Positions 39,556 through 48,817 of a DNA stretch of 64,000 bases are shown in pieces. Origin of the DNA: Fibrobacter sp. UWR4 (GTDB taxonomy: Bacteria > Fibrobacterota > Fibrobacteria > Fibrobacterales > Fibrobacteraceae); assembly GCF_003149045.1 (NCBI RefSeq), contig NZ_QGDU01000009.1, forward strand, positions 1 to 64,000, read 5' to 3'. A model generated the notes under the pieces. It searched no databases, had not been told where the DNA came from, and worked only from the letters and a program-made list of their open reading frames with translations. The translations under genes and the position numbers were made by a program. Numbering within the stretch: the first letter of the stretch is position 1; each line of letters begins with the position of its first letter.

Positions 39556-40542
39556 ATGAAGTATTTAAGTGTCATTCTGAGCTCATTCCCTCGTGTCATT
39601 CTGAGCGAAGCGAAGAATCTAGCAGTCCTCCTTGCGGCAGCCTTTTTCCTTGCTTCCTGTTCTGTTTACGATAACTACAGCGAGGATTCTTACAATGCTT
39701 TCTGGGGCATTGCCGAAAATGACGTAAATTCCAGCTCTGCCGACGAAAAAGTTTCTAGTTCTGTAAATGAGGGGGTCTCTAGCAGTTCCAAGACCCCTGA
39801 TAAGGATGGTGAGTCTATCTCCAGCTCCAGCGTCAAGAAGGATGACTCGTCCAGTAGCAGCAAAAAAGACACCACCTATGTGGTAATCGTCAATCCGTCC
39901 AGCTCTTCGCAGAAGGTCGAATCTGCAGGAAGTTCCGCAGTTGACAATCCCGGCAGTTCTTCTTCCAAGGTCCCTGATCCGATAGAATCCAGTTCCTCTG
40001 CCGTAACATTCAGATGCGGCCTGGATAGCATTGTAGATTCTGAAGAGTATCTCGGTCGAAAATATGCAACGGTAAAGTATGGTTCCCAATGTTGGCTTGC
40101 GGAAAATTCCTACAGGGCTGTTGGCGAATCCAAGTGTTACAATGATGCACCGGAAAATTGCGAGATTTACGGTCGTCTGTACAATTTTGCCGATGCACAG
40201 TTCGCTTGCCCCGAGGGAACTCATCTGCCTTCCGAAGAAGAGTGGATTGCTTTGCAGACTACGGTTACTCGAGACAATGGCGGTCTGGATCTGAAGTCCA
40301 CTGAGACATGGTCAGCGAAGCCCGGACAGTCTGGCAGCAAATTTAGCGCCAAGGCCGCCGGCTACTATGATGCCGAAGAGGAAGAATTCGTTTCTCTGGG
40401 AGGCTTTGCCGGTTTCTGGAGTTCCACCGATGTAGGAGGCATGATGGCCACTTATATGTACCTGTCGTCATCGAACCAGAATTTTATCGATGGCTACAAG
40501 GAACAGTCTAATTTCTATTCGGTACGCTGCCTGAAAGATTAG
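39556..40542 (+). CDS. FISUMP-domain lipoprotein
   Basis: A 328-residue lipoprotein (lipobox LASC). Residues ~55-150 are a low-complexity Ser-rich linker (many SSSS runs), which in Fibrobacter spaces surface domains from the membrane. Residues ~155-328 are a Fibrobacter succinogenes major paralogous domain (YGSQCWLAEN, CPEGTHLPSEEEW, GFWSST, YSVRCLKD), a C-type-lectin-like fold. It lacks the variable repeat of the next gene. The codons for residues 5-25 come from a dispersed repeat (see 39569-39620). AAGGAGG precedes the ATG. Confidence 0.88.
   Translation: MKYLSVILSSFPRVILSEAKNLAVLLAAAFFLASCSVYDNYSEDSYNAFWGIAENDVNSSSADEKVSSSVNEGVSSSSKTPDKDGESISSSSVKKDDSSSSSKKDTTYVVIVNPSSSSQKVESAGSSAVDNPGSSSSKVPDPIESSSSAVTFRCGLDSIVDSEEYLGRKYATVKYGSQCWLAENSYRAVGESKCYNDAPENCEIYGRLYNFADAQFACPEGTHLPSEEEWIALQTTVTRDNGGLDLKSTETWSAKPGQSGSKFSAKAAGYYDAEEEEFVSLGGFAGFWSSTDVGGMMATYMYLSSSNQNFIDGYKEQSNFYSVRCLKD
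39569..39620 (+). repeat. Dispersed repeat inside a signal-peptide coding region
   Basis: Two copies of GTGTCATTCTGAGC (39569-39582 and 39593-39606), the second continuing GAAGCGAAGAATCT. Sequences of this type are common dispersed intergenic repeats in bacterial genomes. Here it is translated as VILS...VILSEAKNL between the start codon and the hydrophobic core. Confidence 0.75.
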
Positions 40543-40567: not shown

Positions 40568-43270
40568 ATGAAAATGAAAATTTTAAAAATTGCAGGATTT
40601 GCGATTCCTCTAACCTTGATTGCCTGTGGCGATTCCGGGACAACGGAAAATATTACCAATAATTATACCAGCGGGATGGAAATCGCAGAAAAGGTCTCGG
40701 ACCTGCCCAAGTGTACTACGGATAACGAAGGTGACCAGGTGTGGGTCAAGGAAAAGGGTGCTGCAAGCATTTGCGTGGATGGCAAGTGGAATGTTATCGG
40801 CGGATCCGGCGCTGCTGCAGATTTTGGTTGTGAGACTAAGAACCTTGCGGATGGTTCCGGTGTCGCCATCTACTGCGCAGGGGATTCCATTGGTGTTGTG
40901 CTGAACGGCAAAGATGGTGCCAAGGGTGATAAAGGTGACATCGGTGAAACCGGTGCCGCAGGTGCCGATGGCAAGGACGGCGTTGATGGCAAAGATGGTG
41001 CGCAAGGTTTGCAGGGTGAAAAAGGCGATGCCGGTAGCGACGGGATGCCGGGCATAGGCTGCAAGGTCGTTTCCCAGACGGAAGATGCTGTGACAATTCA
41101 GTGCGGTGATGACCTGTTTAGCATGAACCTGAACGGCGGTAGTGGGGAAGTTGTTGTTCCCGGTGAAGATGTAGTTTCTCTTGCGAAGTTGAGCGGTGTT
41201 TCCCAGAAAGGGCCGTTTATCAACGGCTCCACGGTGACGCTCTTTGAACTGGACGGTAGCCGTAGCCTGGTGCAGACCGGTCGCACCTTCGGTGGTGAAA
41301 TCATTACCGATGACGGTCGTTTTAGCGTGAACAACGTTTCCCTGAAGTCCAGCTATGTGCGCATGACCGCCAACGGTTTTTATCGCAACGAAGTCACTGG
41401 CAAGAACAGTACCGCTAGCATTGTTCTGAACGCCTATTCCGATTTGCAAGCCCGCAGCAGCGTGAACATCAACCTGCTGACCCACCTGGAATATTATCGT
41501 GTGGGCTACCTCATGGAAAACGGTCTGGAATCCACTATCAAGGCTTCCAAGAAACGCGCCCAGAAAGAAATCTTTGCCGCCTTCGGTATCGATAATGATG
41601 GCTTCGGCTATTCCGAAGATCTGGATGTATTTGGCGAAGGCGATCAGAATGCGGCACTGCTTGCCATGAGCATTTTGTTGCAGGGTGACCGCAGCGAAGC
41701 CGATCTAAGCGCCCTGCTTGCCAGCTTCGGTAAGGATATTGAGGAGGACGGAACCTGGGACGACAAGGCTACACGCGGCACCATCGCTAATTGGGCCGCC
41801 CTTCGCGATGGTGCAGGAAATTTCGGTGTATATCGTGGCTATGTGGAACGCTGGGACCTCGGCTCAGTACCTGAATTTGAAAAGTATCTGCGCAACTTCT
41901 GGAGCCGCGAATATGGTTTGGGCGTTTGTGGCAGCGACACTGTGCCCGTAGGCACCGTGAAGAACGCCACCAACAACAATGGCAAAGCAAGCAATGACTA
42001 CGCAGCAACATACACCAGTCAAACCAACAAGAATCGCTTCATCTGCGTGGATGCCGACAGCCTCAAGTGGCGCGAGGCGACCGACATCGAGAAGGATACC
42101 ATGGGCCTGAAGCATGGTGAACTCACCACTCATGAGCAGGCTTCAGTAATCAACGGTCAAATAAATACAGACTATGTCTATGTGTACGAGGGGAAACAGT
42201 ACCGTCGTGGAACTGACCTGGACAAGAACCTTGGTCTTGGAGGCTGCACTAAGGCCCGCGTGGATTCCGTATGGAAGAGTGGTTCCGCATGGTATACTTG
42301 CGTGGATACGATTGTCCCTAACTCTAAGTTGAATTCTCTTGGAATAATGACTGTTTGGCGCACCTCTACAGACATCGAAAAGGATACAATCCACTGGTCT
42401 ACTCTCAAGAGTAACTTTGATGGCGAGGTCAGCAAGGGACAGATTACAGACAACTACTACATCTACGAAAAGTCCAAAGGAGCCTGGCGCAATGCAACTC
42501 AGGTTGAATACGATACTTATGGTATTGAATGTTCTGCCGAAAAAATCGCTTCCACGATGAATGGCCTCATTAATACAACAAAGATTTACGCTTGTAACGG
42601 AACTGCCTGGGTGTTCAAACGCGACAATCCTCAGAATCATAAATTTGGAACAGTTGCAGATGTCCGTGACAATCAGGTATATTTAACAGTGACTATTGGT
42701 TCCCAGACCTGGATGGCAGAAAACTTGAACTACGACTACAACGAGGGAACTGCCAAGAGCTATTGCTATAGCAACAGCAGTGCCAACTGCGACGAGTATG
42801 GTCGTTTGTACCTGTGGTCGGCAGCCATGGACTCCGCGGCAGTCTTTAGCAATGCCGGAAAGGGTTGCGGTTATGGCACGACATGCGCAGCCGCTTCGAC
42901 AAGTTCAGCGACCTTGGTGAGAGGCGTCTGCCCCGAGGGCTGGCACCTGCCTAGCAACTCCGATTGGAGTATTCTGTGGACTGCTATTGGAGGAACCTCT
43001 ACCGCAGGAACCAAGCTGAAATCAACAAGCGATTGGAACAGCGGTGGCAATGGCGAAGATGCGTACGGTTTCTCCGTCCTTCCTGCTGGCCTCTACTACG
43101 ATGGTAGCTTCCGCAATGCTGGCTACTACGGGTACTTCTGGTCTTCTACTGAGAGCGATAGTAATAACGCCTACGGCAAGTACTTCCTCTACGATATCTC
43201 GGACGTGGACGAGCGCAACTACGGTAAGTACGACGGCTTTTCTGTCCGTTGCCTCCGCAACTCCAACTAG
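40568..43270 (+). CDS. DGR target: collagen-like/FISUMP surface lipoprotein
   Basis: A 900-residue lipoprotein (lipobox LIAC, Cys20). Residues ~112-163 hold 17 uninterrupted Gly-X-Y triplets (GKDGAKGDKGDIGETG and so on), a collagen-like stalk. Residues ~200-690 contain a carboxypeptidase-like or Ig-like region (AKLSGVSQKGPFINGSTVTL) and two or three Cys-rich repeats (DSLKWREATDIEKDT and similar). Residues ~691-900 are a FISUMP C-type-lectin-like domain (IGSQTWMAENLNYD, CPEGWHLPS, FWSST, GFSVRCLRN). The last 66 codons are the variable repeat VR, which matches the downstream template except at adenines. It is thus the diversified protein of the retroelement and should be displayed at the cell surface. 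Confidence 0.92.
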   Translation: MKMKILKIAGFAIPLTLIACGDSGTTENITNNYTSGMEIAEKVSDLPKCTTDNEGDQVWVKEKGAASICVDGKWNVIGGSGAAADFGCETKNLADGSGVAIYCAGDSIGVVLNGKDGAKGDKGDIGETGAAGADGKDGVDGKDGAQGLQGEKGDAGSDGMPGIGCKVVSQTEDAVTIQCGDDLFSMNLNGGSGEVVVPGEDVVSLAKLSGVSQKGPFINGSTVTLFELDGSRSLVQTGRTFGGEIITDDGRFSVNNVSLKSSYVRMTANGFYRNEVTGKNSTASIVLNAYSDLQARSSVNINLLTHLEYYRVGYLMENGLESTIKASKKRAQKEIFAAFGIDNDGFGYSEDLDVFGEGDQNAALLAMSILLQGDRSEADLSALLASFGKDIEEDGTWDDKATRGTIANWAALRDGAGNFGVYRGYVERWDLGSVPEFEKYLRNFWSREYGLGVCGSDTVPVGTVKNATNNNGKASNDYAATYTSQTNKNRFICVDADSLKWREATDIEKDTMGLKHGELTTHEQASVINGQINTDYVYVYEGKQYRRGTDLDKNLGLGGCTKARVDSVWKSGSAWYTCVDTIVPNSKLNSLGIMTVWRTSTDIEKDTIHWSTLKSNFDGEVSKGQITDNYYIYEKSKGAWRNATQVEYDTYGIECSAEKIASTMNGLINTTKIYACNGTAWVFKRDNPQNHKFGTVADVRDNQVYLTVTIGSQTWMAENLNYDYNEGTAKSYCYSNSSANCDEYGRLYLWSAAMDSAAVFSNAGKGCGYGTTCAAASTSSATLVRGVCPEGWHLPSNSDWSILWTAIGGTSTAGTKLKSTSDWNSGGNGEDAYGFSVLPAGLYYDGSFRNAGYYGYFWSSTESDSNNAYGKYFLYDISDVDERNYGKYDGFSVRCLRNSN
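43067..43264 (+). repeat. DGR variable repeat (VR)
   Basis: 198 bases at the 3' end of the target gene, ending 6 bases before the end of its stop codon. Ungapped alignment to the TR at 45348-45545 gives 27 mismatches, every one an adenine in the TR (13 to G, 10 to T, 4 to C). All hit the first or second base of AAY codons; 21 of 26 such codons are changed. The last ~30 bases are unchanged and correspond to the region used to start mutagenic homing in known DGRs. Confidence 0.96.
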
Positions 43271-43272
43271 GA

Positions 43273-43368
43273 GCCTGCCTCTAGGCAACCCCAAGCCGAA
43301 GGCAGGGGTTGCGCCGCCCCACCCCGTCGAGCCTTGCCGGGCGGGGTGGGGCGGCCGCGCGAAGCGCG
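43273..43368 (+). other. Three GC-rich hairpins directly downstream of VR
   Basis: Inverted repeats at 43285-43292/43305-43312 (8 bp), 43313-43326/43342-43355 (perfect 14 bp, 15-nt loop) and 43356-43360/43364-43368 (5 bp, 3-nt loop). In the Bordetella phage DGR a hairpin just after VR promotes target recognition; these are in the equivalent place. They lack T tracts, so they are poor terminators. Confidence 0.75.
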
Positions 43369-43411
43369 AATAAAATTTGTTTGCAAAATTTTGAAAAAAA
43401 GAATAAGTGTC

Positions 43412-44500
43412 GTGAAATCAAAAATTTTAACGGCAGATGACTTGGTTCTCCCTCTACTGGAGGCGTACTATCAAGCACGTCGCCATAAAAGGAACACGGT
43501 AAACCAGCTGCAGTTTGAACTAAGCCTGGAACAGTCTATCTATGATTTATCGCGAGAATTGTCTTCAAGAACGTATGATCTCAGGCCATCCATTTGCTTT
43601 ATCAACGAAACTCCTGTAAAACGCGAAATCATTGCAGCAAACTTTCGTGATAGGGTTGTGCACCATTTGCTGTGTAACTGGATTTGCCCCATATTCGACC
43701 GACAGTTCATTCATGATTGCTACAGCTGCCGTGTTGGCCGTGGAACCGATTTTGCCGTGAGCCGCGCAAAGTATTTTATGGTATCTGAAAGCCGTGATTT
43801 TACAAGGGAATGTTGGTCTTTGCGTCTTGACATTAGTGGTTTCTTTATGGGAATCCACCGGGATATCCTGTATCAGCTTTGTGTAGAGGGCTTGAGTCGT
43901 GGCAAGTGGGCGGGTGTTCCCGACAAGGACTTGTGCATGTTTCTTCTAAAAAAGTTTATCTACAATAATCCTTTGGATAACGCTATTTTTCGAAGTCCAC
44001 CAAGTGCTTGGAATGACCTTCCGTTAAATAAGAGCCTTCGAGGAACTTCAGTAAACTGTGGACTTCCCATCGGTAATCTTACCAGCCAGTGGTTTGGTAA
44101 TATCTACTTGAATAGATTGGACCAGTTTGTAAAGCATCAGCTGAAAATTCGCTGCTATGGCCGCTATGTTGATGATATGCTTCTGGTTCATCACGACAAG
44201 TCTGTTCTTTTAGAAGCAATCTTCAAGATTCGGGATTATCTTAAATCACGGTTGCATTTGAATCTAAATGAAAAGAAAACAAGGCTTCAACCTATACAGA
44301 AAGGTTTTCCTATGCTTGGAGCCTATATTCTGCCGTACCGAACTTATCCTGGCAGGCGTACGGTTAAAAACTTTGTAGAATGTGTAAAGAATCCTTGCCG
44401 TGATGAAGATAAGCAGAAAAGTAGAGTCCAAAGCTACCTGGGCTATATGGGGCATTATAACGCATATCGGCTTACCCAGTCTATTCAACAAGGAACATGA
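43412..44500 (+). CDS. DGR-type reverse transcriptase
   Basis: A 362-residue reverse transcriptase. RT motifs in order: CYSCRVGRGTDFAV (region 2), SLRLDISGFFMGI (catalytic Asp of motif A), GLPIGNLTSQWFGNIYLN (the I/LGxxxSQ motif 4 typical of DGR enzymes) and YGRYVDDMLLVH (YxDD catalytic pair). It lacks maturase and endonuclease domains, unlike group II introns. It should copy TR RNA into adenine-mutated cDNA. GTG 43412 is chosen: it is the first start beyond the hairpins. Its TGA overlaps the accessory gene by ATGA. Confidence 0.95.
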   Translation: MKSKILTADDLVLPLLEAYYQARRHKRNTVNQLQFELSLEQSIYDLSRELSSRTYDLRPSICFINETPVKREIIAANFRDRVVHHLLCNWICPIFDRQFIHDCYSCRVGRGTDFAVSRAKYFMVSESRDFTRECWSLRLDISGFFMGIHRDILYQLCVEGLSRGKWAGVPDKDLCMFLLKKFIYNNPLDNAIFRSPPSAWNDLPLNKSLRGTSVNCGLPIGNLTSQWFGNIYLNRLDQFVKHQLKIRCYGRYVDDMLLVHHDKSVLLEAIFKIRDYLKSRLHLNLNEKKTRLQPIQKGFPMLGAYILPYRTYPGRRTVKNFVECVKNPCRDEDKQKSRVQSYLGYMGHYNAYRLTQSIQQGT

Positions 44501-45219
44501 ATATGAAAATGTCTGAAATATATGCTTTGGAAGAAGCGAACAAATCCTCCATCTATCTTTATTTGGAAGGCTCGTTTTACAAGGCTTATGAAAGGTCTGC
44601 ATTTCGTTTTTGCAAGAGGTTTCGGGAATGCAAGGTAAGTGCTGTTCACAACTTGTCACTGGCTTGCGACATTGTACGCATTGGTTTCCCGAAAATTGCC
44701 TTGGATAAGTATATGGCTGTAGCCCAGTCGTTTGGGTATTCGGTAGAATGCCAAGACGAAAAGAGAATTGCCGTTCATGGGATTGAACCTTTGGAAGGAT
44801 TTTCTTCTTGGAAAAATGGTTGCGTGTCTAATGCCGTTAGGGCTAAAGAGCAAACTTTGCCTATTGTTAATGCTCAGGAGTCATTAAAATTGCGTCTTTA
44901 CCGCGAAGCTTATGACAATGCTGTGGCTCTTACAAATTTTACTTCTAGGCTGCACCGTAATTTTCGTTTTGGAGCTGGTGATTCCTTGCGAAATGAATCT
45001 CTGGAACTGGCGGTAAAACTACACGTGGCGTTTAAACGAGGTGAGTCTCTGGATGAACGGCAAATATTTTATGAGATAGAACAGATGCGCATTCGCACTC
45101 GCATAATGCATGATGTGAAGCAATTTGATAGTGGCGTGTGGAAAATGCTCAACGATCGTTTTGACAGAATGCAGAATTTACTAAGGTCGGAATCCTGTTG
45201 CTTTGATGTGCAGGAGTGA
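44497..45219 (+). CDS. DGR accessory protein: MutS-I-like domain plus Avd-like helical bundle
   Basis: A 240-residue basic protein. The C-terminal half (~128-235) resembles Avd, the four-helix RT partner of DGRs: FTSRLHRNFRFGAGDSLRNE and QIFYEIEQMRIRTRIMHDVK match its helices 1-3. The N-terminal half (~18-95) resembles domain I of MutS: IYLYLEGSFYKAYERSA aligns with LFFRMGDFFELFEDDA, and RIGFPKIALDKYMAVAQSFG with LCGFPHHAAERYIPKMVAAG of the mutS product in this window. The acidic mismatch-reading residue is not in the same context. It probably binds the RT and TR RNA. AAGGAA precedes ATG 44497, and it overlaps the RT gene by 4 bases. Confidence 0.82.
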   Translation: MNMKMSEIYALEEANKSSIYLYLEGSFYKAYERSAFRFCKRFRECKVSAVHNLSLACDIVRIGFPKIALDKYMAVAQSFGYSVECQDEKRIAVHGIEPLEGFSSWKNGCVSNAVRAKEQTLPIVNAQESLKLRLYREAYDNAVALTNFTSRLHRNFRFGAGDSLRNESLELAVKLHVAFKRGESLDERQIFYEIEQMRIRTRIMHDVKQFDSGVWKMLNDRFDRMQNLLRSESCCFDVQE

Positions 45220-45239
45220 ACCTCTGGAGTTGGGCGGCA

Positions 45240-45267
45240 TACTCGCTGCTGATATGCAGGGCGAGTA
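45240..45267 (+). ncRNA. Stem-loop in the leader of the DGR template RNA
   Basis: TACTCGCTGC pairs with GCAGGGCGAGTA around a 6-nt loop, about 80 bases before TR. It is probably part of the structured RNA around the TR that the RT and Avd recognise. No T run follows, so it is not a simple terminator. Confidence 0.45.
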
Positions 45268-45347
45268 GAGTTTGTCGGGAATGGTGAATCGCGGCTGTTG
45301 TCCGCTTTTGCTGTTTCCGCTGAAAGTTGCTGCGAAATTCTTGTAAG

Positions 45348-45545
45348 GGTTTCTCCGTCCTTCCTGCTGGCAACTACAACAATGGTAGCTTCAACAATGC
45401 TGGCAACAACGGGAACTTCTGGTCTTCTACTGAGAACAATAGTAATAACGCCTACAACAAGAACTTCAACTACAATAACTCGAACGTGAACGAGAACAAC
45501 AACAATAAGAACAACGGCTTTTCTGTCCGTTGCCTCCGCAACTCC
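45348..45545 (+). repeat. DGR template repeat (TR)
   Basis: 198 bases matching VR at all positions but 27. It holds 64 adenines, and most variable sites are AAC or AAT codons when read in the VR frame, the classic DGR template bias that allows many residues and never a stop. It lies downstream of the accessory gene and is not itself a gene, although one frame stays open through it. Confidence 0.95.
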
Positions 45546-45591
45546 TCTGGCAATCCGTTTGTAACAATGATGCCCCTAAAAAAGGAAAAAT

Positions 45592-46476
45592 ATGAGAAAG
45601 AAAACTCTACGGCTTGGGAATGGAAATGTTGTGAATGATACAAACGAGCGCTTTGAAAACGAAAAATATGTGGAATCAGAAGAGGATACATTATCTTCAT
45701 TGCAATTCAATCCTATAAAAGAAAAAGAAGATTTAAAAAAATTCTTTTTGAAAAAAGAGGCATATAGTAAATTTGTTAATGGGGAAAAGAATTACTATTT
45801 TTATTGGTTTACTACTTATGATAAACTAGAGTTACTCGTAAATAAGAAAACGTTAAAGCTAGGTTTTCCTCCAAAGTGGTATGATTATGTTGATAGAATT
45901 TTTATTGAAGCATATTCCAATGAAATTGAACTTGGAAAAAGAATTTATGCGTCTTGTATAACTACGCAAAAAACATCTTTAATGTGGCAAAATTATGCTT
46001 TCAAAGAGAATTCTGTACTGATTATTTTTAATGGTCGAAAACTTCTGGAACTTCTGGGTGAAAAAATTCTGTTTTACCCTGTTATGTATATACCCCATTT
46101 AGAAAAAAGAAAAAAACAGAAAATTCTTGTGCCAAATAAATTGCTTTACCCGTTTATAAAGCGATATTCATATCAAGATGAACGGGAATGGCGCATTATA
46201 TCTACAAAACAAAACTTGAGATTTAAGACAATTAAGGATCTGATTGAATCCGTCTCAATTAGTGACTTTGCCTATGAAAAAAAATTACTTGAGAGTAAGA
46301 ATCAGTCAGAGGCTAATTATCTTTTGATTGAAAAGCAAAAAGAGAGGTTTAAGAAAAAGGTTGAGAAACTTTGTGAAAAAATCTCTCCCCAAAAAAGATA
46401 CCTGCGAAATGACTGGACTTTTGTGAATAAGTCTGTTATTCGGAATTATTGTGCGGACTTAGGAGACTTATCATAA
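45592..46476 (+). CDS. DUF2971-like protein, AT-rich
   Basis: A 294-residue protein resembling DUF2971: YWFTTYDKLELLVNKKTLKLGFPPKW, split here as YWFTTYDKLELL and KLGFPPKW, then IYASCITTQ, SLMWQNYA and YSYQDEREWRII. Function of the family unknown. The gene is visibly richer in A and T than its neighbours, so it was probably acquired. AAAGGA precedes ATG 45592, which is 46 bases after TR; it could be transcribed with the TR RNA. Confidence 0.7.
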   Translation: MRKKTLRLGNGNVVNDTNERFENEKYVESEEDTLSSLQFNPIKEKEDLKKFFLKKEAYSKFVNGEKNYYFYWFTTYDKLELLVNKKTLKLGFPPKWYDYVDRIFIEAYSNEIELGKRIYASCITTQKTSLMWQNYAFKENSVLIIFNGRKLLELLGEKILFYPVMYIPHLEKRKKQKILVPNKLLYPFIKRYSYQDEREWRIISTKQNLRFKTIKDLIESVSISDFAYEKKLLESKNQSEANYLLIEKQKERFKKKVEKLCEKISPQKRYLRNDWTFVNKSVIRNYCADLGDLS

Positions 46477-46540
46477 TTTGCGAATAGAATTATGATCCCA
46501 ATACTGAACAAGGCTTTGGGGGCTTAAGCATAGCTTATAC

Positions 46541-46621
46541 ATGCTACGCGCGCATATAGTACGGCTCGGCAATGCCCGCTCGAGTAAACTCGGCGGTCGC
46601 TGCACTCGCCTTTTGTTATAT
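46541..46621 (+). repeat. ~75-80-bp repeat, copy 1
   Basis: Starts ATGCTACGCG, contains a shared CGGCTCGG core and ends CTCGCCTTTTGTTATAT, as does copy 2 at 46625-46698. The two are adjacent and diverge in the middle. Confidence 0.7.
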
Positions 46622-46624
46622 GGC

Positions 46625-46698
46625 ATGCTTCGCATGCATATACTGCGGCTCGGAAATATCCACGCAAGCGTGGCTACTTCTCTCGCCTTTTGTTATAT
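46625..46698 (+). repeat. ~75-80-bp repeat, copy 2
   Basis: See 46541-46621. The shared end TTATAT supplies the putative -10 of the next gene. Confidence 0.7.
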
Positions 46699-46705
46699 TT
46701 AAAAC

Positions 46706-48292
46706 ATGGCGTTAAAGAATTTTCCTATCGGCATTCAGGATTTTGCGAGCATTCGCAACGAAGGGTTCTTTTATGTAGATAAGACGGACCTTGTTTACAA
46801 GTTGACTCATACAAGCAAGTATTACTTCCTCAGCCGCCCTCGCCGTTTTGGAAAGTCCCTTTTGATTAGCACATTGCAATGCTATTTCGAAGGTCGCAAG
46901 GAACTGTTCACTGGCCTAGCCATGGAACGCCTGGAGACCGAGTGGAAAAAGTATCCGGTCATTCGGCTGGACTTGAGTACAGTCAAGTCAACAGACCAGG
47001 ACAAGTTTGCCGAGAACATGAGCTTGAATCTGGAGTCTTACGAAAAAGAGTATTGTTTGGACAAGACAACTAGCCAGGCATGGGGTGCAAGGCTTAGGCG
47101 TATTATTGAAGCTGCAAATAATCAGACAAAGTCGCAAGTCGTTGTCTTGGTTGATGAATACGATGCTCCCGTTCTTGAGGCTATGGGCGATGCGAAGGCG
47201 CTAGAACGCATCCGAATGCAGATGCGGGAACTTTACGCGCCCCTCAAGGCCCTTGGCGGCATGCTTCGTTTCGTGTTCCTCACGGGCGTCAGCAAGTTCA
47301 GTCAGCTCAGCATCTTTAGCGAACTGAACAACCTGAATGTCATTACCATGGATGACGACTATGCAGCCATCTGCGGCATCACCAAGGAAGAACTGCTGAC
47401 CCAGATGCAGCCCGAAATCCAGGCGCTCGCCGACAAGCAGAAAATGACCTACGACGAGGCTGTCGCAACTTTGCAGCGCCGATATGATGGTTACCACTTC
47501 AGCGAAAACTCACCGGATATCTACAATCCGTTTAGCTTGATAAACTCTTTAGGTAAACAGAATTTCTTAAACTATTGGTTTGCATCGGGTACGCCGACCA
47601 TGCTTGTGAAGGCCATGGCCCGTTATAAGCTGAGTCCCGAAGAATATGATCGTGGTTTTTCTGTTGCACAGAGAACTTTTGATGCTCCTACAGAAACCGC
47701 AGAGACTCCCATCCCGGTTTTATACCAAAGTGGATATTTGACCATCAAGGGTTACGAAAAGGATTCAGTACGTCCGTTCAAATTGCAGTTCCCCAACGAT
47801 GAAGTTCGTAATGGAATGCTGGATTTGCTGACGAATTCGTATGTGTCAAAAAATGATGAGGAAACCTCCGAGTTCTTGGACCACTTCGTGACGGCGATGA
47901 AGGCGTGTGACATTGAAACTGCGCTTACAGAAATGCGCGCGTTCATGGCGAGCATTCCCTACGACGCCGAAAAGCAGAACGAACATCATTATAGAACTAT
48001 TTTCTACCTGATATTCAGAATTGCGACGCCGTACCTTGTCCGTTGCGAGGAACGTACCGCCGCAGGCCGCGCCGACGCCGTGGTGGAAACCGCCGACGCT
48101 GTTTACGTATTTGAATTCAAACTTGATGCAAACGGTACTGCCGACGATGCCCTCAGACAAATCGACGACAAGGGGTATCTGGTGCCTTACACCGTGACCA
48201 AGACTGCCGACGGCTCCCCGAAAAAACTGTTCAAGATTGGCGTCGCCTTCGATGCGGAAAAACGCACCTTGGGTCAGTGGAAAATCGCATAG
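46706..48292 (+). CDS. AAA-ATPase-like and PD-(D/E)XK nuclease-like protein
   Basis: A 528-residue protein of the widespread AAA-ATPase_like (PF09820-type) plus DUF1703/PD-(D/E)XK (PF08011-type) family. It shows YFLSRPRRFGKSLLIST (Walker A, ~45-60), VVVLVDEYDAP (Walker B, ~145-155), a middle QRRYDGYHFS and a C-terminal GRADAVVETADAVYVFEFKL with the nuclease D, E and K. Function unknown. Such genes occur in many copies in gut and rumen bacteria. A TATATTTA motif ends 4 bases before the ATG and there is no ribosome binding site. Confidence 0.88.
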   Translation: MALKNFPIGIQDFASIRNEGFFYVDKTDLVYKLTHTSKYYFLSRPRRFGKSLLISTLQCYFEGRKELFTGLAMERLETEWKKYPVIRLDLSTVKSTDQDKFAENMSLNLESYEKEYCLDKTTSQAWGARLRRIIEAANNQTKSQVVVLVDEYDAPVLEAMGDAKALERIRMQMRELYAPLKALGGMLRFVFLTGVSKFSQLSIFSELNNLNVITMDDDYAAICGITKEELLTQMQPEIQALADKQKMTYDEAVATLQRRYDGYHFSENSPDIYNPFSLINSLGKQNFLNYWFASGTPTMLVKAMARYKLSPEEYDRGFSVAQRTFDAPTETAETPIPVLYQSGYLTIKGYEKDSVRPFKLQFPNDEVRNGMLDLLTNSYVSKNDEETSEFLDHFVTAMKACDIETALTEMRAFMASIPYDAEKQNEHHYRTIFYLIFRIATPYLVRCEERTAAGRADAVVETADAVYVFEFKLDANGTADDALRQIDDKGYLVPYTVTKTADGSPKKLFKIGVAFDAEKRTLGQWKIA

Positions 48293-48313
48293 TTTGTATT
48301 GTTGCTGTTCCCT

Positions 48314-48817
48314 ATGATCGACTTCGCTGCGTTACAAGACTTCGTTTTCGAGGATCGCGTTTATGATTCCGAAATCCACGGCTTGGCCCATTGGCGGCAA
48401 GTGGAGTTTAACGGACTGTTGCTTGCGAAAAAGACTAAGGCTGACATTACGGTGGTTCGCCTCTTTGCCTTGTTCCACGATTCCAAGCGGGACTTTGACG
48501 GATACGACGAAACTCACGGCGGCCGTGGTGCTGAATTCGCCAAGAAATGTCGTGAAGAAAAACGTTTTGAAATCACGGATGAACAGTTCGAGAAACTATA
48601 TCACGCCTGTAAGAACCACACTTCGGAAAGGCATAATGGCGACCCCACCATTGATACCTGCTACGACGCAGACCGCCTTGACCTGGGCCGCGTGGAAATT
48701 AATCTTGATCCGATGAAAATGGCTTCGCTTGCCGGAGCCTTCATTGCCGCACAGTCTCGCAAAGAAAATATCCCGCCTTGTAAAATGCGGGATTGGTTAA
48801 TGAAATTTGAGTTTTAA
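48314..48817 (+). CDS. HD-domain-like phosphohydrolase
   Basis: A 167-residue protein with the HD-superfamily pattern: HGLAHWRQVE, then LFALFHDSKRDFDG (the HD pair), HACKNHTS, and DTCYDADRLDLGRV with a late Asp. It could be a small metal-dependent phosphohydrolase acting on nucleotides; substrate unknown. ATG 48314 is preferred over TTG 48299. Just 21 bases after the ATPase gene. Confidence 0.75.
   Translation: MIDFAALQDFVFEDRVYDSEIHGLAHWRQVEFNGLLLAKKTKADITVVRLFALFHDSKRDFDGYDETHGGRGAEFAKKCREEKRFEITDEQFEKLYHACKNHTSERHNGDPTIDTCYDADRLDLGRVEINLDPMKMASLAGAFIAAQSRKENIPPCKMRDWLMKFEF

Follow-up and report, generated by a model that had tools for sequence, protein, structure and literature searches.

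The 64,000-nucleotide stretch of Fibrobacter sp. UWR4 DNA analyzed here (the window) carries a diversity-generating retroelement (DGR) in which one copy of a 198-nt repeat, VR, departs from its template, TR, only at adenines of AAY (asparagine) codons. This restriction very likely reflects the action of a Fibrobacter DGR in which three influences combine, namely, the way the template is written, the context in which the reverse transcriptase (RT) reads each adenine, and probably selection on the protein.

Layout of the locus and pattern of changes

The locus is identified as a DGR by TR/VR mismatches at TR adenines (27 of 27 here and 28 of 28 in a sister species), an RT with the [IVL]GxxxSQ motif that groups with known DGR RTs, a target ORF whose product has a variable-protein fold and whose 3′ end holds the VR, and an Avd accessory protein recognized by the fold of its C-terminal half. 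Its parts follow the order target, RT, accessory, TR (Table 1), and in its asparagine targeting it is an ordinary, well-formed DGR. Three nucleotides separate the end of VR from the stop codon of the target gene. The leader that precedes TR is probably part of the TR RNA. A GC hairpin (fold z −5.5) begins 48 bp past VR; its stem of 14 bp, versus a mean of 5.4 bp for shuffled sequences, is the sole such site in the genome. The hairpin is unlike that of BPP-1 in size and spacing, and the stems found in relatives are varied, many of them inside the shuffled range.

Table 1. Parts of the DGR locus, in window coordinates
Feature	Coordinates	Strand	Evidence
Target gene, 900 aa	40568..43270	+	ORF list
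FISUMP domain within target	42638..43267	+	Modelled, C-type lectin fold
VR	43067..43264	+	Repeat search; A-to-N at 27 sites, each in an AAY codon
Unchanged 3′ end of VR, candidate IMH	43235..43264	+	VR/TR alignment
Strong GC hairpin, candidate DGR hairpin/cruciform or terminator	43313..43355	+	Folding
DGR reverse transcriptase	43412..44500	+	RVT_1, phrog_1423, alignment, tree
Accessory protein, 240 aa	44497..45219	+	Structure model
Leader between accessory gene and TR	45220..45347	+	Sister comparison
TR	45348..45545	+	Repeat search; same sequence in sister genome

The two copies of the repeat are 86% identical. The first-pass annotation had counted 27 mismatches, each opposite a TR adenine (13 to G, 10 to T, and 4 to C), and had placed all of them in AAY codons of the target frame, 21 of 26 such codons being altered; both counts were confirmed. 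Base 1 is changed in 19 of these 26 codons and base 2 in 8. The template itself restricts what can vary, as 52 of its 64 adenines lie in AAY codons and none at a third codon position. Changes affect 27 of the 52 AAY adenines and none of the 12 others (Fisher p = 0.0007). The spared adenines belong to three TAC codons, one AGC, one AGT, one ACT, two GAG, and two AAG codons (two adenines in each AAG), and 6 of the 12 precede a G. All 12 sit between the first and the last changed sites, so that tract length does not explain their sparing. The assertion that no substitution could create a stop codon holds for the AAY codons but not for the two AAG codons (VR positions 43178 and 43226), in which an A-to-T change at base 1 yields TAG.

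Comparison with the sister species, whose RT is 99% identical, fits a fixed template and a rewritten target: TR is identical at 198 of 198 positions and the leader differs at 0 of 128, whereas VR differs at 24 of 198 (12%). The accessory gene differs at 4 of 719 positions (0.6%), the RT gene by 3.6%, and the neighboring genes by 15 to 22% (14 to 18% for the upstream genes, by local alignment). The sister VR carries 28 changes from TR, only at AAY adenines; 19 are at sites also changed in the window, 12 of them to the same base. It has been rewritten independently of the window VR. Only two AAY codons, AAT 43115 and AAT 43163, are unaltered in both genomes. The adenines of the SNNAY stretch, described earlier as unchanged together with those of AAG and TAC, are indeed unchanged in the window, but that stretch is not fully protected, as AAC 43166 reads GAC in the sister. 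Likewise, the final AAC (43259 in VR, 45540 in TR), 6 nt before the end of homology and inside the candidate IMH, is GAC in the sister, which may mean that mutagenesis extends nearly as far as the homology does, or may be an ordinary mutation. Positions 42689 to 48762, comprising the DGR core and downstream DNA, are approximately 95% identical to the sister while the upstream genes have diverged, and this sequence comparison suggests a recent exchange of the DGR cassette with the sister species.

The target protein starts like a lipoprotein, with a lipobox (LIAC) visible in the sequence, continues with a collagen-like segment (residues 114 to 162; Collagen, 5e-8), and ends with the FISUMP domain that holds VR (PF09603, 7e-34; TIGR02145, 7e-56). 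The model of this domain (pLDDT 91.5) has a C-type lectin fold. Its best solved match is 2y3c, Treponema denticola TvpA (Z 8.8 over 177 aligned residues), followed among the C-type lectin-fold DGR variable proteins TvpA, Mtd, and TaqVP by 1yu1 (6.9) and 5vf4 (6.7), although the 2y3c score is only modestly higher than those of unrelated lectin-fold entries. The AAY codons alternate (N-x-N-x-N) along a predicted strand of the domain; in the model, this arrangement is suggestive of variable residues lying exposed in one site. A second FISUMP lipoprotein-like gene, with no TR match, lies just upstream of the target (39556-40542).

The RT has the motifs IGNLTSQ (residues 220 to 226) and YVDD, with Phe145 in motif A; Padloc hits of this protein were set aside as generic RT similarity. 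The same genome holds four DGR-type RTs in all, and the other three also come with TR/VR pairs; remote VRs were sought by one DNA search of this genome. The accessory protein gave no match in sequence searches with family models, and a sequence-profile search of solved structures with this protein and the target domain as queries gave none either. Its structure model consists of an extra N-terminal alpha/beta domain and a C-terminal Avd-type four-helix bundle, the latter matching the BPP-1 Avd structures 4dwl and 8ub7 (TMt 0.72 to 0.79). Homologues are present in other Fibrobacterota DGRs. Certain Bacteroidota DGRs have matches to the two halves in different stretches of the locus, and the accessory protein may thus be a gene fusion.

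Copying context and selection at the spared adenines

We surveyed TR/VR pairs in retrieved loci, requiring that mismatches fall mainly at template adenines; once duplicates were discarded, 216 pairs remained. Within each pair, the count was confined to adenines lying between the first and the last change, and these were classed by codon, by neighbors, and by whether any change would be synonymous; small or reverse-orientation matches were left out if they held fewer than 6 AAY adenines. The clade of the window RT contributed 117 loci in 62 TR clusters; many loci are related, and clustering lowers the effect of kinship without removing it. In this clade, 2078 of 3988 AAY adenines were changed (52%), compared with 217 of 1468 others (15%). 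The count over many VRs that the first-pass annotation had proposed as a check, obtained here from the sister VR and the survey, thus makes the sparing of non-AAY adenines a rule of the clade. The first A of AAC was changed in 70% of cases (T > G > C) and the second in 41% (G > T), while the corresponding figures for AAT were 44% and 36%; the excess of base-1 changes seen in the window is therefore general in the clade. Any A before G was changed in 22 of 597 cases (4%), TAC in 16 of 166 (10%), and the first A of AAG in 8 of 62 (13%), never to the T that would give TAG. From the rates at other loci, 0.88 changes would be expected at the 12 spared sites of the window (P(0) = 0.40), so that finding none is ordinary. 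For the four DGRs of this genome taken together, the count was 0 of 19 adenines before G.

The sparing could in principle arise from purifying selection alone, all adenines being mutated alike and variants with altered Tyr, Lys, Glu, Ser, or Thr residues being lost. The spared codons do encode more conserved residues than the AAY codons (mean column entropy, 2.19 versus 2.85 bits), the absence of T among the 8 changes at the first A of AAG is as this reading would have it, and TAC is changed less often than neutral Y-A-C sites (4 of 9, a small number of sites). All VRs have already passed through selection, and the clean control is provided by adenines at fourfold-degenerate third positions, which escape selection on the protein; none is present in the window TR. 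Within the window clade, such adenines were changed in 1 of 80 cases before G, versus 41 of 111 elsewhere (p = 1.5e-10, 30 clusters). Selection on the protein alone is thus refuted for the A-before-G sites: the context itself is cold, which accounts for 6 of the 12 spared sites. In the Fibrobacter subset, the corresponding count was 0 of 15, or 2 of 17 with doubtful rows that were later excluded (small samples). Fourfold-degenerate A before T was also cool in the clade (7 of 42). Moreover, AAC and AAT yield the same residues, yet they differ in the rate of first-base change and in its spectrum, the T:G ratio being 626:306 in AAC versus 68:99 in AAT (p = 2e-10), which argues for copying context rather than protein selection. 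The cDNA made by the BPP-1 RT shows the same switch, the first A being biased to T in AAC and to G in AAU (PMC12875486). Pure selection is therefore improbable as the whole explanation. Of the two possibilities raised initially, selection or protected sites, protection by context is established for A before G, while selection is likely at TAC and at the first position of AAG. There it is probably the main force, in contexts that may be cold as well: in Fibrobacter loci, TAC-context sites outside TAC codons were changed in 3 of 29 cases, which argues against selection alone. From AAC codons, TGC (Cys) arose 8 times in the window clade versus 147 expected from independent positions. This shortage may reflect selection against Cys or linked misreading, and since the two misreadings may not be independent of each other, we do not count it as proof of selection.

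Other accounts fare worse. It appears very unlikely that a fold of the TR RNA, or a protein bound to it, protects particular adenines, given that this RNA folds no better than shuffled sequences (z −0.59) and that sparing tracks the next base across unrelated TRs. Chance could be invoked because 81% of TR adenines lie in AAY codons and merely 12 lie outside them, but the association becomes stronger when the window is pooled with the sister (p = 2.6e-7, with sites that are not fully independent), and we give this reading almost no credence. It is just as implausible that the two repeats arose without a DGR, by ordinary duplication and divergence or by gene conversion. This genome does contain duplicated FISUMP genes, but the probability that 27 mismatches would all fall by chance on the 64 adenines of 198 bases is 6e-16, and such an origin is excluded because in both genomes the changes are one-sided and limited to A; a DGR-type RT and an Avd fold adjoin the repeats, and in the sister TR is frozen while VR is rewritten.

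In the DGR explanation that we favor, the RT would copy the TR RNA with misincorporation opposite adenines, and the cDNA would then replace VR at the 3′ end of the gene for a lectin-fold surface protein (retrohoming). The unchanged TR beside a rewritten VR in the sister lends these steps indirect support. Template writing places most adenines in AAY codons. The RT context makes the first A of AAC the hottest site, mainly toward T, and almost never allows misreading of A before G, thereby shielding AGC, AGT, GAG, and the second A of AAG. The adenines of the three TAC codons and of one T|ACT, and the first A of the two AAG codons, would probably owe their conservation mostly to selection, both for the fold and against TAG, in contexts that may also be cold.

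The neighbor rule across RT lineages

We think it probable that DGR RTs follow a lineage-specific neighbor rule, A before G being copied faithfully in the window clade and nearly always converted to G in a phage clade, with BPP-1-like RTs in between, and that this rule tracks Phe or Tyr at residue 145. The window-type clade spans Fibrobacterota, Bacteroidota, Patescibacteria, and some viral contigs. In the phage DGR RT clade (approximately 25 to 31% identical), A before G was changed in 255 of 272 cases, 245 of them to G, and at fourfold-degenerate sites in 67 of 70. The per-locus rates are bimodal. On a tree of the window RT and 166 others, BPP-1 included, the rule label requires 3 changes versus about 44 when shuffled, some clustering being expected from near-copies.

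Residue 145 separates the clades, with Phe in 115 of 115 RTs of the window clade versus Tyr in 47 of 47 of the phage clade. It lies five residues after the catalytic Asp of motif A, the position of the dNTP-contacting aromatic residue in other RTs. The rule also held in 105 new pairs: A before G was changed in 68 of 73 cases at Tyr145 loci and in 12 of 24 at BPP-1-like Phe145 loci, all to G, and in 4 of 20 in another Phe145 group. The clades also split at YxDD (Val versus Ala, Met, or Cys), but Val253 of YVDD was rejected as the switch: three loci that combine Tyr145 with Val253 nonetheless show changes at A before G (5 of 6), making residue 145 the better correlate. Residues 143, 146, 223, and 76 are also clade specific and confounded with 145. 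In these sequence comparisons, the association of Phe/Tyr145 with the neighbor rule is a correlation with lineage. We found no report of such a rule by lineage in the literature searched, a scope outside which most subscription papers fell.

Relation to known systems and significance

The locus shares several features with the BPP-1 DGR (mtd-avd-TR-brt): TR is rich in AAC, VR departs from it only at adenines, the gene whose 3′ end holds VR encodes a C-type lectin fold, and an Avd four-helix bundle is present. It differs by its gene order, the extra N-terminal domain of the accessory protein, and its RT residues, YVDD with Gly143 and Met146 as opposed to YMDD with Lys and Pro; in addition, the BPP-1 TR lacks any A before G. 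The T. denticola TvpA DGR provides the closest solved fold to the target domain and also has a lipoprotein target, but its TR-VR variation involves lysine codons as well (PMC4891356), in contrast with the untouched AAG codons of the window. The accessible text on human-microbiome DGRs describes targets with Fib_succ_major or DUF1566 domains and mentions AAY targeting and stop avoidance (PMC4159848). The window target belongs to the same listed domain family, whereas neighbor-base rules and Fibrobacter loci lie outside that analysis as far as this text goes. The Legionella Lcl adhesin also joins collagen-like repeats to a C-terminal domain whose fold is similar (8q4e, Z 8.4), but the sequence match is weak, under the NCBIfam Lcl cutoff, and we claim no kinship.

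Changes restricted to asparagine codons are known DGR behavior. The survey adds two points: part of the sparing of other adenines stems from copying context, which synonymous sites make it possible to tell apart from selection, and the rule varies sharply with RT lineage. If true, this would tell which template adenines serve as fixed or variable letters for a given RT, and would mean that templates can write protected adenines beside mutable ones. Such knowledge would help to predict variable residues and to diversify proteins with DGRs, and it singles out a residue to test.
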